A stretch of DNA of 31,714 bases from a virus: positions 1 through 31,714 of IMG/VR virus record IMGVR_UViG_3300035670_000887; one strand, 5' to 3'. Position numbers and translations under genes: made by a program. Shown piece by piece: positions 18,301-31,714 of the stretch. Numbering within the stretch: position 1 is the first letter of the stretch; the number at the start of each line of letters is the position of its first letter. The notes under the pieces were generated by a model that had not been told where the DNA came from, did not search any database, and was given only the letters and a program-made list of their open reading frames with translations.

Positions 18301-18478
18301 ATCCAAATCCGCAATGACTCTTTTCTTTGAGTACCATCCCGAGTTCAGCGATGCCATCAAAGAGATGTACCTCCACATTGAGCGCACTCAACTTGAATCA
18401 GCATACTTCACAGGCAAGGTGCAGTACGATTCAGGCAAGTCCGAGCAGCAATTCTTTGCCGAGCGTTATGAAGATTAA
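18290..18478 (+). CDS. Hypothetical small protein
   Basis: A 62-residue protein overlapping the previous gene by 11 bases and the methyltransferase by 11. FFEYHPEFSDAIKEMYLHIE and FFAERYED suggest a helical protein. The start may instead be the internal ATG at 18314 (MTLFFEYH). No family was recognised; the tight packing supports expression. Confidence 0.5.
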   Translation: MNTKSKSAMTLFFEYHPEFSDAIKEMYLHIERTQLESAYFTGKVQYDSGKSEQQFFAERYED

Positions 18479-19847
18479 CCAACTTGACTTGTTCAGCGGA
18501 ATCGGTGGATTCCATCTCGGCTTTGAGCGAGCAGGATATGAAGTCACATCCTACTTCTCGGAGATAGACCAACACGCTATCGCAGTATACAAACATCAAT
18601 TCCCAAACTCTACTTATGTCGGATCAGTTACAAATGTTCGGGGAGCAGACCTTCCCCGAATTGACCTCATCACTTTCGGAAGTCCTTGCCAAGATTTCTC
18701 ATTGGCAGGAAAACGAGCTGGGATGGAAGGAGAAAGAAGTTCTCTTGTCCTCCAAGCAATCCGCCTTATTGGCGAATGCCGACCAAGTGTATTTGTCTGG
18801 GAAAATGTTAAAGGCACGTTCTCCTCAAATGATGGCGCAGACTTTTGGGCGATTATCCAAGCCTTTACCAACATTGGGGGTTATAGACTTGAATGGCAAT
18901 TGCTTAATACAAGTTGGTTTCTACCCCAAAATAGAGAGCGGATATACCTTGTCGGATATTCTACAACCACAGGAGGAGATTGGCGAGGAGTATTTCCTAT
19001 CGGAGAAGGTGATAAATCAAATCCTGTCCAACGAGTCCAAATAGTCGGGCATCGTGGCACAGGCGGTCAGCAAGGATTCATCTATGGTGAGGATGGCATA
19101 GCGGCTACTCTAAACGCCTGTAGCTACAAAGACCCGATGAAAGTACAGGTGCTTGATAAGCGTGGCAACCACAAGAAAGGTGAGAATGCTTATACGCTTG
19201 TAGCTGGATATTACAAGCAGCCATCTGATGGTGATTACCTGAAAGTAAAGCAAATCGGTACGAGGCGTGATTCCAATGGTGGAACACAACCCTATCAGCA
19301 AGACCGAGTGTATGATGCTGATGGAATTGTTCCTGCATTAAATCGTGGCAAGAGTGATTTGATTATTAAACAGGAGATTGGCGATTATCGTAGTGATGAA
19401 GGATGGAGGCCACGAAAAGATGGAAATTGCCCAACACTTGCTGCTCGTGCAAGGGAAGATGGTAGCGGTCAGCCATTGCTAAAAACAAACTATTCAAGCA
19501 AAGCTCTAAATGAAACGATAGAGAACAGTGAATTAGTAGAAGGAGAACCGCAAGCTCTTGATTTGTACAATCGTGTAGCAAGAAGCGAATCACCAACCCT
19601 CACCGAGCCACACCACAACTCTCTACGGATGTTTGATGGCTACCGTATCAGAAGGCTCACGCCCATTGAATGCGAACGCTTACAGGGATTCACCGATGAC
19701 CATACCGCCTTTGGCAACTACGATGGTGTAGTGAAGCCAATGAGCAACACCCAACGCTACAAGCAATGTGGCAACGCAGTAACGGTGGATGTGGTTGCGG
19801 CAGTTGCAAAAAATTGTTTACCTTTATTCAAAACCAATCAACAATGA
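18468..19847 (+). CDS. DNA (cytosine-5) methyltransferase
   Basis: This 459-residue C5 methyltransferase transfers a methyl group from S-adenosylmethionine to cytosine and probably protects phage DNA from host restriction. Visible motifs are I DLFSGIGGFHLGFE (7-20), IV with the catalytic Cys74 in GSPCQDFS, VI ENV (112-114), VIII QNRER (154-158), and the C-terminal RRLTPIECERLQGF and QCGNAVTV (433-440). The region 205-385 is unusually long and carries about five TLxA-like units, suggesting several target-recognition parts. ATG 18468 is chosen because motif I must start within about ten residues. A second long open frame (18616-19044) overlaps it. Confidence 0.92.
   Translation: MKINQLDLFSGIGGFHLGFERAGYEVTSYFSEIDQHAIAVYKHQFPNSTYVGSVTNVRGADLPRIDLITFGSPCQDFSLAGKRAGMEGERSSLVLQAIRLIGECRPSVFVWENVKGTFSSNDGADFWAIIQAFTNIGGYRLEWQLLNTSWFLPQNRERIYLVGYSTTTGGDWRGVFPIGEGDKSNPVQRVQIVGHRGTGGQQGFIYGEDGIAATLNACSYKDPMKVQVLDKRGNHKKGENAYTLVAGYYKQPSDGDYLKVKQIGTRRDSNGGTQPYQQDRVYDADGIVPALNRGKSDLIIKQEIGDYRSDEGWRPRKDGNCPTLAARAREDGSGQPLLKTNYSSKALNETIENSELVEGEPQALDLYNRVARSESPTLTEPHHNSLRMFDGYRIRRLTPIECERLQGFTDDHTAFGNYDGVVKPMSNTQRYKQCGNAVTVDVVAAVAKNCLPLFKTNQQ
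19830..19840 (+). promoter_or_regulatory. Early-gene leader motif, copy 6
   Basis: AAAACCAATCA three bases before ATG 19844, inside the last codons of the methyltransferase gene, so here the motif must act within a coding region. Confidence 0.6.
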
Positions 19848-24282: not shown

Positions 24283-24619
24283 TGACATCCTTAAAAAGGC
24301 AATGCTTGAGGCTTTGGAGAAATCTTTAGGTGTTGTCACCTCTGCCTGCAAGACGGTGGACATCTCAAGAGAAACGCACTACCGATGGATGCGTGAGGAT
24401 GCTGACTACAAAGCAGGAGTTGAAGCACTATCAGACGTTGCCCTTGACTTCGCAGAAAGCCAACTCCACAAGCAAATCAAAGACGGCAACTCAACCGCCA
24501 CAATCTTCTACCTAAAGACAAAGGGCAAGAAGCGTGGGTACATAGAACGCCAAGAGGTAGAGGTGGCATCAGGCAAGATGTTCCAAATAGAGGTGCTTGG
24601 GGAAGATTCAGACCAATAA
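24272..24619 (+). CDS. terS: Terminase small subunit
   Basis: A 115-residue protein with an N-terminal helix-turn-helix (LEKSLGVVTSACKTVDISRE, then THYRWMREDADYK), a central helix (VALDFAESQLHKQIKDGN), the TATIFYLKTKGKKRGYIER segment typical of phage small terminases, and an acidic tail. It recognises the packaging start site and activates the large subunit, whose gene overlaps by 23 bases. Confidence 0.8.
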   Translation: MANNDILKKAMLEALEKSLGVVTSACKTVDISRETHYRWMREDADYKAGVEALSDVALDFAESQLHKQIKDGNSTATIFYLKTKGKKRGYIERQEVEVASGKMFQIEVLGEDSDQ

Positions 24620-25754
24620 GGTATTCAACCACCTAAAGCGCAGCGACAAGAAGATAGTCGTTGAGCAGGGCGGAACCCGAAGCGGAAAAACGTACAACAT
24701 CCTGCTTTGGGTAATTTTCTATTATACGGACCAACATACGGACAAGACGATAACAATCTGCCGTAAGACGTTCCCATCGCTTCGTGCTTCGGTAATGCGT
24801 GACTTCTTTGAAATACTGCGTAGCCACGACCTGTACCGTGAGGAGTACCACAACAAGTCAAACCACGAATACTACCTCAACGGTAACTTGGTTGAGTTTA
24901 TCAGCCTTGACCAACCACAAAAGATACGAGGCCGCAAGCGTGACCTGTTGTACATCAACGAGGCCAACGAGCTAACGTACGAGGATTGGCAGCAGCTCAT
25001 CCTGCGTACCGAAGGCAGGGCAATCCTTGACTACAACCCTTCGGATGCGTTCCATTGGATTTACGACAAGGTGGTTACCCGTGATGACTGCGACTTCTAC
25101 CAAACGACCTACCTTGACAACCCGTTCCTTGATGCAGGCATCAAAGCCGAGATTGAACGCTTAAAGGAAACGGACGAGGACTATTGGCGCATCTACGGCT
25201 TGGGCGAGCGTGGCATGAGCCGTGCCACCATCTTCCAATTCGGGATGAATGAAATACCTGCTGATGCAAGCCTACTCGCTTATGGGATGGACTTCGGCTA
25301 CACCAACGACCCGACCTCGCTTGTAGCGGTGTACAAGTCGGGTGACAACCTGTATGCCGATGAACTCATCTACCAAACAGGACTCACCAACCCAGACATT
25401 AGCAACCGACTCAAAGACCTAAACCTTGACAGGCGCACGGAAGTATTTGCGGACTCTGCTGAACCCAAATCCATTGAGGAGTTGCATCGCATGGGGTGGA
25501 ACGTAAAGCCCACGCAGAAGGGCGCAGATAGCGTTATAGTGGGTATTGACGTGCTGAAGCGACACAAGCTATTCGTGACCCCACGAAGCAACAACCTAAT
25601 CAAGGAACTTCAGAACTACAAATGGGTAGAGGACAAGAACGGCAACCTCCTCAACAAGCCCATAGATGCGTTTAACCACGCCATTGATGCAATGCGGTAC
25701 GCAACATACAACAAGCTCTCACGCCCCAACTACGGGCGGTATGCTATACGCTAA
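24597..25754 (+). CDS. terL: Terminase large subunit
   Basis: A 385-residue packaging motor and nuclease. The ATPase has Walker A GGTRSGKT (25-32) and Walker B DLLYINE (116-122) with coupling residues NYNPSD-like in LDYNPSDAFHWIY. The RNase H-like nuclease has YGMDFGYTNDPT (about 225-236), VFADSAEPKSIEEL and the final acidic site DAFNHAIDAMRYA. It pumps DNA into the prohead through the portal and cuts it. The start appears to be TTG 24597: a stop lies at 24588-24590 and the first in-frame ATG is well past the Walker A motif. The overlap with the small subunit suggests translational coupling. Confidence 0.93.
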   Translation: MGKIQTNKVFNHLKRSDKKIVVEQGGTRSGKTYNILLWVIFYYTDQHTDKTITICRKTFPSLRASVMRDFFEILRSHDLYREEYHNKSNHEYYLNGNLVEFISLDQPQKIRGRKRDLLYINEANELTYEDWQQLILRTEGRAILDYNPSDAFHWIYDKVVTRDDCDFYQTTYLDNPFLDAGIKAEIERLKETDEDYWRIYGLGERGMSRATIFQFGMNEIPADASLLAYGMDFGYTNDPTSLVAVYKSGDNLYADELIYQTGLTNPDISNRLKDLNLDRRTEVFADSAEPKSIEELHRMGWNVKPTQKGADSVIVGIDVLKRHKLFVTPRSNNLIKELQNYKWVEDKNGNLLNKPIDAFNHAIDAMRYATYNKLSRPNYGRYAIR

Positions 25755-25774: not shown

Positions 25775-26473
25775 ATGGAACTGAAGGTCATAGTACCCAC
25801 CTCACTATCTGAAATCACCCTTGACCAATACCAACGCTTTGCACGGTTGGAGGGTGACGAGGAGTTCCTCACCCATAAGATGCTTGAAATCTTCTGCGGT
25901 GTGCCTTTGGCGCAACTGCCGAACGTCAAGTTCTCAAGCGTAGCAAATGTGATGCGCCACATCAACACGATGTTTGAGGAGAAGCCATCACTCAAGCCTA
26001 CGTTCACGATTGGTGAACAGGAGTTCGGATTCATCCCCAACCTAGAAGACATCACCTTTGGCGAGTACGTTGACCTTGACAACTACATGGGCGATGTGCA
26101 GAACCTCCACAAGACGATGGCGGTGTTATACCGACCTGTCACGGAGAAGGCAGGCAAGCGATATGCCATTGAGCCATACGAGTCAGCGCAGAAGTATGAG
26201 CAGCAGATGAAGGATGCTCCAATGGATGCGGTAATGGGTGCATCGCTTTTTTTTTGGCGTTTAGGAAACGACTTGTTGGTCGCTACCCTGACCTCTTTGG
26301 AGAAGGAGAAAACGAGTACACAAGCGAAGCCCAATTCGGACGTAAGTGGGGATGGTATTCTTCCTTCTATCAGCTCGCTCAAGGAGATGTTACAAGATTT
26401 GACCGAGTCGGAAGGCTTGGTATTCACGAAGCCCTTACCTTTCTCGTTTTTGAAAAAGAGCGAATTGATTTAG
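25775..26473 (+). CDS. Tail assembly chaperone, zero-frame product
   Basis: A 232-residue helical protein with ITLDQYQRFARLEGDEEFLT, IFCGVPLAQLPNV, a central FIPNLEDITFGEYVDLDNYM and DVQNLHKTMAVLYRP, recognised as a type common after terminase or tail genes in Bacteroidota phages. At residue 158-160 a run of nine T allows a -1 shift into the frame ending at 26502. Without the shift, translation continues with FFWRLGNDLLVATLTSLEKE and DGILPSISSLKEMLQDL, which also look conserved. It would be the counterpart of lambda gpG, assisting tape measure and tube assembly. ATG 25775 is preferred to the upstream TTG 25769. Confidence 0.7.
   Translation: MELKVIVPTSLSEITLDQYQRFARLEGDEEFLTHKMLEIFCGVPLAQLPNVKFSSVANVMRHINTMFEEKPSLKPTFTIGEQEFGFIPNLEDITFGEYVDLDNYMGDVQNLHKTMAVLYRPVTEKAGKRYAIEPYESAQKYEQQMKDAPMDAVMGASLFFWRLGNDLLVATLTSLEKEKTSTQAKPNSDVSGDGILPSISSLKEMLQDLTESEGLVFTKPLPFSFLKKSELI
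26248..26254 (+). promoter_or_regulatory. Slippery site for -1 ribosomal frameshift
   Basis: A run of nine T at 26247-26255. In the zero frame it reads C-TT TTT TTT TGG, so T-TTT-TTT at 26248-26254 is a canonical X-XXY-YYZ heptamer in the correct phase. A shift by -1 enters the frame that ends at 26502, whose stop overlaps the next start by ATGA. No strong stem-loop immediately downstream was confirmed by eye. Confidence 0.7.
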
Positions 26474-26502
26474 AACGCAAGCAAATAGCAAAAATTAAAT
26501 GA
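26254..26502 (+). CDS. Tail assembly chaperone, -1 frameshift extension
   Basis: This frame encodes about 82 residues joined by frameshift to the first 160 residues of the 25775 protein, giving about 242 residues. The extension contains EAQFGRKWGWYSSFYQLAQG and GIHEALTFLVFEKERIDLER. I recognise this KWGWYxxxYxLAxGD pattern as a free-standing or frameshifted partner of this chaperone in other phages. Only a TTG could start it independently. Its stop at 26500-26502 forms an ATGA with the next gene. It corresponds to the T part of lambda gpGT. Confidence 0.7.
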   Translation: MAFRKRLVGRYPDLFGEGENEYTSEAQFGRKWGWYSSFYQLAQGDVTRFDRVGRLGIHEALTFLVFEKERIDLERKQIAKIK

Positions 26503-26966
26503 GGCAGTTTTACGACATCACGACCAAGCTTAAGGACACCCTTGAAGCCCATAGCCAAGTCAACGTAGTGACTACGGGTGACCTGTTTGACATTGACCTG
26601 AACAAGCAGACCATCTTCCCTTTGAGCCACATCATCATCAACCAAGCAACATTTGAAGGCCAAATTGTACGCATGAACGTAAGCCTCGTTTGTATGGACT
26701 TGGTAGATGAAACCAAAGAGAACCCTCGTGACCAAGCAGAACCGTTCTACGGCACGAGCAACGAACAGGACATTCTGAACACGCAGCTTGCCGTCATCAA
26801 CGATGTGGTGACCGAACTACGAAGAGGCACGTTGTACTCGGACTTGTACCAGTTGGATGGCTCGGCATCAGCAGTACCCTTCAGCGAGCGTTTTGAGAAC
26901 TTGCTTGCGGGATGGACTGCTACGTTTGATGTGCTTCTTGCTAACACCGAAATAAGCGTTTGCTAA
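26499..26966 (+). CDS. Tail completion / terminator-like protein
   Basis: A 155-residue protein of a type frequent in Bacteroidota phages: MRQFYDITTKLKDTLEAHSQ, VNVVTTGDLFDIDL, FPLSHIIINQATFEGQIVRM, EQDILNTQLAVINDVVTEL and FENLLAGWTATFDVLL. The helix-strand layout and size fit tail terminator or completion proteins that cap the tail for head joining. That function is inferred. It is translationally coupled to the frameshift product and is one base from the next gene. Confidence 0.6.
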   Translation: MRQFYDITTKLKDTLEAHSQVNVVTTGDLFDIDLNKQTIFPLSHIIINQATFEGQIVRMNVSLVCMDLVDETKENPRDQAEPFYGTSNEQDILNTQLAVINDVVTELRRGTLYSDLYQLDGSASAVPFSERFENLLAGWTATFDVLLANTEISVC

Positions 26967-31001: not shown

Positions 31002-31714
31002 TGGCAGTAGTTGAACAAATACGTGTAGAGGGCGATACTTCAGGGTTTCAGCAGCAGATTGATGCGCTCAACAAAAAGATTGAGGAGCTTGAGAAGAATC
31101 TCGGTGGCGTACAAAAGGAAACCGCTGATGTAGCCAAAGAAGCCAAAAAGACAGGCAACGTCATCACCAAAGCCTTTGGAGGCTTGAAGAAGGTGGTGAC
31201 TGCTCCGTTTGACCTTGCCAAGAAAGCAGCAGGCGGACTGGGAACACTCCTAAAAGGCGGTCTTGGATTCGGTCTTGTCACGGCAGCGGTAGACAAACTA
31301 TCAGAATCTTTTAACGCCAACCAAAAGGTCGTAGATGCGGTCAACAAGGTGTTGGCTACGTTGAGCATCATCTTCAACAAGATTGCAGAGGCGGTCTTCA
31401 GCACCGTAGAGGAGCAGAGCAAACTCAACGGAGGGTTTGATGCAACGAAGAAAGTACTCGGTGGCCTCATCTCGGGCGTTCTGCTGACGTTTGTCGGCAT
31501 CATTCAGGGAATCACACTCGGAGTGCAAGAGGCGCAGTTAGCGTGGGAAAAATCATTCTTTGGTGACAAAGACGAGAAGACCATTGACGAGCTTAACAAG
31601 AAGATTGCCATCACCCGTGAGGAGCTGAAGAAGACAGGCGAGGGATTGCTTGAGTCGGGCAAAATGGTCATCAGCAATCTTGCCGAAGCAGCAAGCGAGG
31701 TAGCAGGCACGGTG
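31001..31714 (+). CDS. Tape measure protein, N-terminal part (continues at base 69)
   Basis: The first 238 codons of the tape measure gene, open to the window end. It starts AVVEQIRVEGDTSGFQQQID followed by a coiled coil with KKIEELEKNLGGVQKETADV, then hydrophobic segments (FGGLKKVVTAPFDLAKKAAG, GTLLKGGLGFGLVTAAVDKL, and GGLISGVLLTFVGIIQG), typical of tape measure proteins. The frame is preserved through the 68-base overlap into bases 69-1232, giving about 625 residues. Comparing with lambda, about 1.5 angstrom of tail per residue would predict a tail below about 100 nm, a rough inference. Confidence 0.8.
   Translation, partial: MAVVEQIRVEGDTSGFQQQIDALNKKIEELEKNLGGVQKETADVAKEAKKTGNVITKAFGGLKKVVTAPFDLAKKAAGGLGTLLKGGLGFGLVTAAVDKLSESFNANQKVVDAVNKVLATLSIIFNKIAEAVFSTVEEQSKLNGGFDATKKVLGGLISGVLLTFVGIIQGITLGVQEAQLAWEKSFFGDKDEKTIDELNKKIAITREELKKTGEGLLESGKMVISNLAEAASEVAGTV
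31647..31714. repeat. Terminal direct repeat, right copy
   Basis: Identical over 68 bases to positions 1-68; it closes the circle within the tape measure gene. Confidence 0.95.

Follow-up and report, generated by a model that had tools for sequence, protein, structure and literature searches.

A conserved nine-T run and two overlapping reading frames under selection in a probable tail assembly chaperone cassette of Bacteroidota phages

Two overlapping reading frames meet at an uninterrupted run of nine T's (T9) in the phage genome analysed here (the window, 31,714 nt, IMG/VR record IMGVR_UViG_3300035670_000887), and both frames are conserved past the run. Our favoured reading, to which we assign a probability of about 0.6, is that this is a recoding cassette, probably a tail assembly chaperone gene, whose fusion product is made through slippage of RNA polymerase at T9.

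Genomic organization of the cassette

The window represents a circular phage genome of ~31.6 kb, as judged from identical 68-bp ends (1-68 and 31647-31714), and contains terminase, portal, capsid and tape-measure-like genes. The features relevant to the cassette are as follows.

24597-25754, + strand: terminase large subunit gene, the upstream neighbour (phrog_2, E 6e-47)
25775-26473, + strand: zero-frame ORF with ATG at 25775, G-like product of 232 aa (phrog_32199, annotated as unknown function, E 7.7e-23)
26247-26255, + strand: T9 homopolymer, the putative slip site (sequence; T9 or T10 in 410/410 related sites)
26248-26254, + strand: T_TTT_TTT heptamer in zero-frame phase, the ribosomal alternative (sequence)
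26254-26502, + strand: -1-frame C-terminal extension, T-like, 82 residues plus TGA (conserved family; helical model, pLDDT 79)
26255-26473, + strand: region coding in both frames, with a zero-frame tail of 72 codons plus stop (synonymous-site suppression, effect-class test, stop avoidance)
26254-26301, + strand: dual-constraint block 1, zero-frame helix WRLGNDLLVATLTSLE and -1-frame LAFRKRLVGRYPDLFG (4-fold difference, helix 150-176)
26365-26400, + strand: dual-constraint block 2, zero-frame SISSLKEMLQDL and -1-frame FYQLAQGDVTRF (4-fold difference, suppression of radical changes and stops, helix 195-214)
26262-26264, + strand: TAG in the +1 frame, two codons past T9 (sequence)
26499-26966, + strand: next gene, 155 aa, overlapping the -1 frame by ATGA and used here as a control gene (phrog_30964, annotated as unknown function)

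The zero frame crosses T9 as CTT TTT TTT TGG and continues to a stop codon at 26471-26473. The -1 frame is already open upstream of T9 and includes the KWGWYSSFYQLAQGD pattern; it ends in a TGA at 26500-26502 that overlaps the start of the next gene (ATGA, 26499-26502). The overlap between the frames is about 219 nt, and the predicted fusion would comprise 160+82 = 242 aa, its first 160 residues being common with the 232-aa product. The original prediction had described the T9 run with its in-phase heptamer, the open -1 frame with its pattern and ATGA overlap, the 72-codon continuation of the zero frame and products of 232 and 242 aa; each of these agrees with the coordinates of the two frames.

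Conservation of the T9 site in relatives

Relatives were retrieved by searching viral contigs with the zero-frame protein, the alignment of its N-terminal part and the alignment of the -1 frame; they comprise well over 100 distinct contigs, several of which were retrieved more than once. The run was exactly T9, and the second frame -1, in all of the first related loci carrying both parts (238/238, including loci reached via the -1 frame alone). After more distant searches, 410 sites (118 non-redundant) were available: all are T9 or T10 and none is shorter. The cultured Nonlabens phages P12024L and P12024S are among the T9 carriers, and the cassette with its T9 is also found in Dysgonomonas contigs with about 26% identity, where the run occupies another codon phase. 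Searches of the phage collection by tblastn and blastn with Dysgonomonas and other members gave no match. A sequencing error at the T run, which the original prediction had named as one finding that would refute it, is ruled out by the occurrence of the same run in hundreds of assemblies.

The two ORFs stand in a -1 relation at every site with both, except for one T10 outlier (L333:2968-2977). In this contig the extra T places both parts in one frame, and it may represent a natural fused variant or a homopolymer error. The outlier also bears on the idea that replication slippage at T9 toggles the fusion at the DNA level. Homopolymer tracts can act as contingency loci, and the T10 of L333 sets the parts in frame as such a switch would; yet the parts are out of frame everywhere else and the run length is near-fixed, unlike that expected of a switching population, making phase variation very improbable.

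Selection on both frames of the overlap

Up to 39 diverse representatives entered the test of dual coding, in which the N-terminal part of G and the next gene served as controls. Each third base of a -1-frame codon is at the same time the middle base of a zero-frame codon. At conserved residues, codon identity was 0.45 in the controls and 0.60 for -1-frame codons of the overlap. Third positions of the -1 frame differed in 0.26 of comparisons over the first 20 codons, in 0.44 over the following 42 and in 0.54 at the gene end (controls, 0.61-0.63), while the first and second positions were hardly altered in the overlap relative to the controls. At 4-fold sites, the third-position difference was 0.053 in block 1 and 0.225 in block 2, versus 0.646 in control genes. 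Among eight sequences of the Dysgonomonas group, the third-position difference was 0.31-0.42 in the overlap versus 0.61, and 0.68 past the zero-frame end.

In an effect-class test, each change that left the -1-frame protein unaltered was sorted by its effect on the zero frame, and an observed/expected ratio was calculated for each class. Changes also silent in the zero frame were tolerated (1.23). In the first block the ratios were 1.44 for silent, 0.50 for conservative and 0.30 for radical changes, and zero-frame stops were absent (0 versus 327 expected). The second block (columns 42-53) was likewise constrained, with ratios of 0.54 for radical changes and 0.06 for stops, and columns 20-41 and 54-65 were near neutral. 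This test superseded a comparison of first-base and third-base changes in Leu codons, in which the predicted pattern was absent (it drew on few columns, including one within the T run). When the -1-frame proteins were held in simulation, 37 zero-frame stops were expected and none was seen across 18 disjoint pairs (product P about 1e-22).

These results bear on whether the zero-frame tail could be a non-functional shadow, or the two frames a single gene broken by a sequencing error. Out-of-frame ORFs of 60-80 codons do exist elsewhere in this genome, and the zero frame of P12024-type phages stops 15-24 codons past the run, as a chance overlap would allow. A shadow ORF is nevertheless ruled out by the stop avoidance and the effect-class test: the suppression is position-specific and graded by zero-frame effect, and together with the T9 found in so many assemblies this leaves chance with next to no likelihood. 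RNA structure was also ruled out as the source of the synonymous-site suppression, because strong suppression is confined to the -1-frame third position and spares changes that are silent in the zero frame; moreover, RNA structure alone would not yield suppression graded by zero-frame effect. The codon comparison across relatives that had been proposed alongside the claim of two coding frames thus upholds it, and purifying selection on both C-terminal frames is strongly supported by the alignments.

Conservation of the zero-frame protein in relatives reaches its C-terminus. In its AlphaFold model (pLDDT 79), a helix at residues 150-176 passes through the slip point and another spans residues 195-214, whereas the linker between them (180-192) and the end of the chain are disordered; the two helices coincide with constrained blocks 1 and 2. 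The -1-frame tail was modelled as an all-helical domain (pLDDT 79). Long constrained zero-frame tails occur on both sides of the family, which suggests that the short tail of P12024-type phages arose by loss rather than being the ancestral state.

Evidence bearing on the slippage mechanism

The original prediction was of a programmed -1 ribosomal frameshift. The comparative data strongly support entry into the -1 frame at the T run, whereas the ribosome is the less supported mechanism. In the classical scheme, known from lambda and P2, two tRNA-Phe would slip in tandem at T_TTT_TTT, and the 242-aa fusion would again result. The direction is right, the heptamer lies in zero-frame phase at the sites examined, and every T9 site contains one. 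Ribosomal frameshifting is, moreover, the established mechanism of the G/GT cassettes of characterised phages (PMC5009743).

Several properties of the run are less readily accommodated by ribosomal slippage. Seven T's suffice for the ribosomal heptamer, which fixes only the core, yet the run is at least nine long in any codon phase. At all seven non-redundant sites where codon 1, which precedes the two Phe codons, gives one T (GCT, GGT or AGT), codon 4, which follows them, gives at least two (TTG, TTA or TTT); codon 4 thereby compensates for codon 1, such that the run changes phase without becoming shorter and no run of eight occurs, although these seven cases come from few clades and so represent few independent events. 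The Phe codon TTC, and with it T_TTT_TTC, is never used at the slip site, even though it makes up ~32% of Phe codons in the controls and a C at position 26254 would leave the protein of either frame unaltered. A downstream stimulatory structure is common, but not obligatory, at X_XXY_YYZ sites, and lambda-type sites work without an obvious strong stimulator. No enrichment of downstream RNA structure was detected at the 118 sites with a pseudoknot-free model (mean z -0.31 to -0.1 immediately past the run; -0.31 at +5 nt, other offsets being similar), and an Rfam search gave no match.

A census of T runs in 465 other genes of related contigs, scored as observed/expected by codon phase, revealed avoidance of sense T7 runs in all three phases (4/12.9, 1/8.8 and 10/29.0) and only two runs of eight or more versus about 20 expected. 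The in-phase T_TTT_TTN heptamer (T6, phase 2) was not avoided (49/51.4), contrary to what ribosomal slippage would lead one to expect. Mutation bias or DNA instability may account for part of the T-run avoidance. Long A runs in the 465 genes were avoided only from about 8-9.

Programmed transcriptional slippage calls for an uninterrupted A/T homopolymer of about 8-9 or more with a conserved length, and the T9/T10 tract, kept across codon phases, has this form. Searches for such slippage in bacteria have used runs of nine A or T; in Shigella mxiE a U run fuses two ORFs by this route, and Thermus dnaX offers a further precedent for length-dependent slippage of RNA polymerase (PMC1088944). Slippage sites are mostly homopolymers of eight or more (PMC3711429). 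Because the length-dependent, phase-independent T-run pattern fits slippage by RNA polymerase better than slippage by the ribosome, the sequence comparisons suggest the former. They stop short of proof, because every T9 contains a valid heptamer and the known G/GT cassettes rely on the ribosome. The lambda G:GT ratio is about 30:1, and a further point against the transcriptional reading is that published transcriptional slippage efficiencies of 15-55% (PMC4256274) exceed it. Given the length of at least nine across phases, the lack of a detected stimulatory structure and the phase-independent T-run avoidance, we regard purely ribosomal frameshifting as possible but the less likely of the two mechanisms. 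A mixture of transcriptional and ribosomal slippage on one tract, for which both signals are present inside T9, is improbable, as no result requires two mechanisms.

A model for the products of the cassette

With transcriptional slippage as the preferred reading, standard decoding would give the 232-aa G-like protein. A minority of transcripts would gain one U at T9 through slippage of RNA polymerase; on the resulting U10, ribosomes would continue in the -1 DNA frame and produce the 242-aa G-T fusion. Transcripts with -1U or +2U would instead meet the TAG two codons on and give a short form of about 162 aa. The +1 frame ends two codons past the run in most relatives (median 2 codons across non-redundant sites), so mis-slipped transcripts would yield the short form only; this stop may be a mere consequence of the dual-coded TTTAG sequence. 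Past the run, the DNA would specify the end of the last core helix and the second helix in the zero frame, and a helical T-like domain in the -1 frame. The lambda G/GT system would suggest that the shared N-terminal region binds the tape measure and that the T part contacts the tail-tube protein. On balance, we lean towards a broader scheme in which programmed transcriptional slippage at an invariant T9 determines the proportion of the two tail chaperone forms in a large group of Bacteroidota phages; nearly the whole slipped region would be ancient dual-coded sequence with a different conserved helical C-terminal domain in each frame, and a third, short form may exist.

Relationship to known systems

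Like lambda gpG/gpGT, P2 E/E+E' and HK97 gp13, the cassette combines a short protein with a predicted longer -1 fusion that has a common N-terminus, lies in the structural and tail region, and has a T-like extension ending at the start of the next gene. The differences are considerable. Lambda, P2 and HK97 have zero-frame tails of about 6-8 codons past their slip sites, whereas here the tail is mostly 50-85 codons long and under selection; the slip site is T9/T10 rather than of the GGGAAAG type. The gene follows terminase instead of lying between the major tail protein and tape measure genes, and the tape-measure-like ORF (31001 onward, wrapping), which spans the end-to-end junction of the circular genome, is several genes downstream.

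Sequence similarity to these systems is also missing. Comparisons by hhalign with lambda G, lambda T and HK97 gp13 were negative, searches of Pfam and NCBIfam returned no match for the family, profile libraries gave it no name, and a PDB fold search found no match. Tail chaperones diverge widely, so absent similarity to characterised members is weak evidence. The listed matches of a BFVD fold search were unnamed or uncharacterised proteins only. One of them belongs to the cultured Flavobacterium phage 6H, which was rejected as a relative with the cassette since it is without the T9/-1 arrangement; near the end of this fold-level relative (L422:10001-10930) there is a T_TTT_TTC that is followed by no open -1 frame.

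The name tail chaperone given in the original prediction is therefore reasonable from the G/GT-like layout, with neither a sequence family nor a fold match behind it. Because tail length, slip sequence, position and similarity all differ, the cassette is better said to work like a tail assembly chaperone cassette than to be a demonstrated member of that class, and it appears to be a variation on G/GT recoding with a long, selected zero-frame tail and a T9/T10 slip site.

The cassette also resembles Shigella mxiE and spa13 and Citrobacter or Yersinia tssM, in which an A/T homopolymer of at least nine lies at the junction and an added base shifts the downstream frame, changing the C-terminus of the product (PMC1088944, PMC4256274). 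Those are secretion-system genes with measured slippage, whereas slippage in the present case is proposed from sequence comparison; unlike them, it encodes conserved protein in both downstream frames. A literature search of incomplete coverage found no report of transcriptional slippage for the tail assembly chaperone genes of these phages. If the preferred reading is true, the G/GT ratio would be controlled by RNA polymerase and not by the ribosome in a widespread group of Bacteroidota phages, and the overlap would be an unusually clear and statistically testable example of a dsDNA phage with extended dual coding on one strand.

The cassette gene is split or missed by gene callers, and T9 could be used as an annotation marker. 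The homologous cassette of Nonlabens phages P12024L and P12024S (genes 40 and 41) has T9 and a -1-frame WGW domain, its zero frame ending 24 codons past the run. In P12024L (L082:3001-3695), the annotation treats genes 40 and 41 as separate hypothetical genes and begins the second at an ATG internal to the -1 frame. Elsewhere in the window, a 142-aa ORF (18616-19044) lies in another frame inside a DNA cytosine-methyltransferase-like ORF (18327-19847) and is a possible second overlap.
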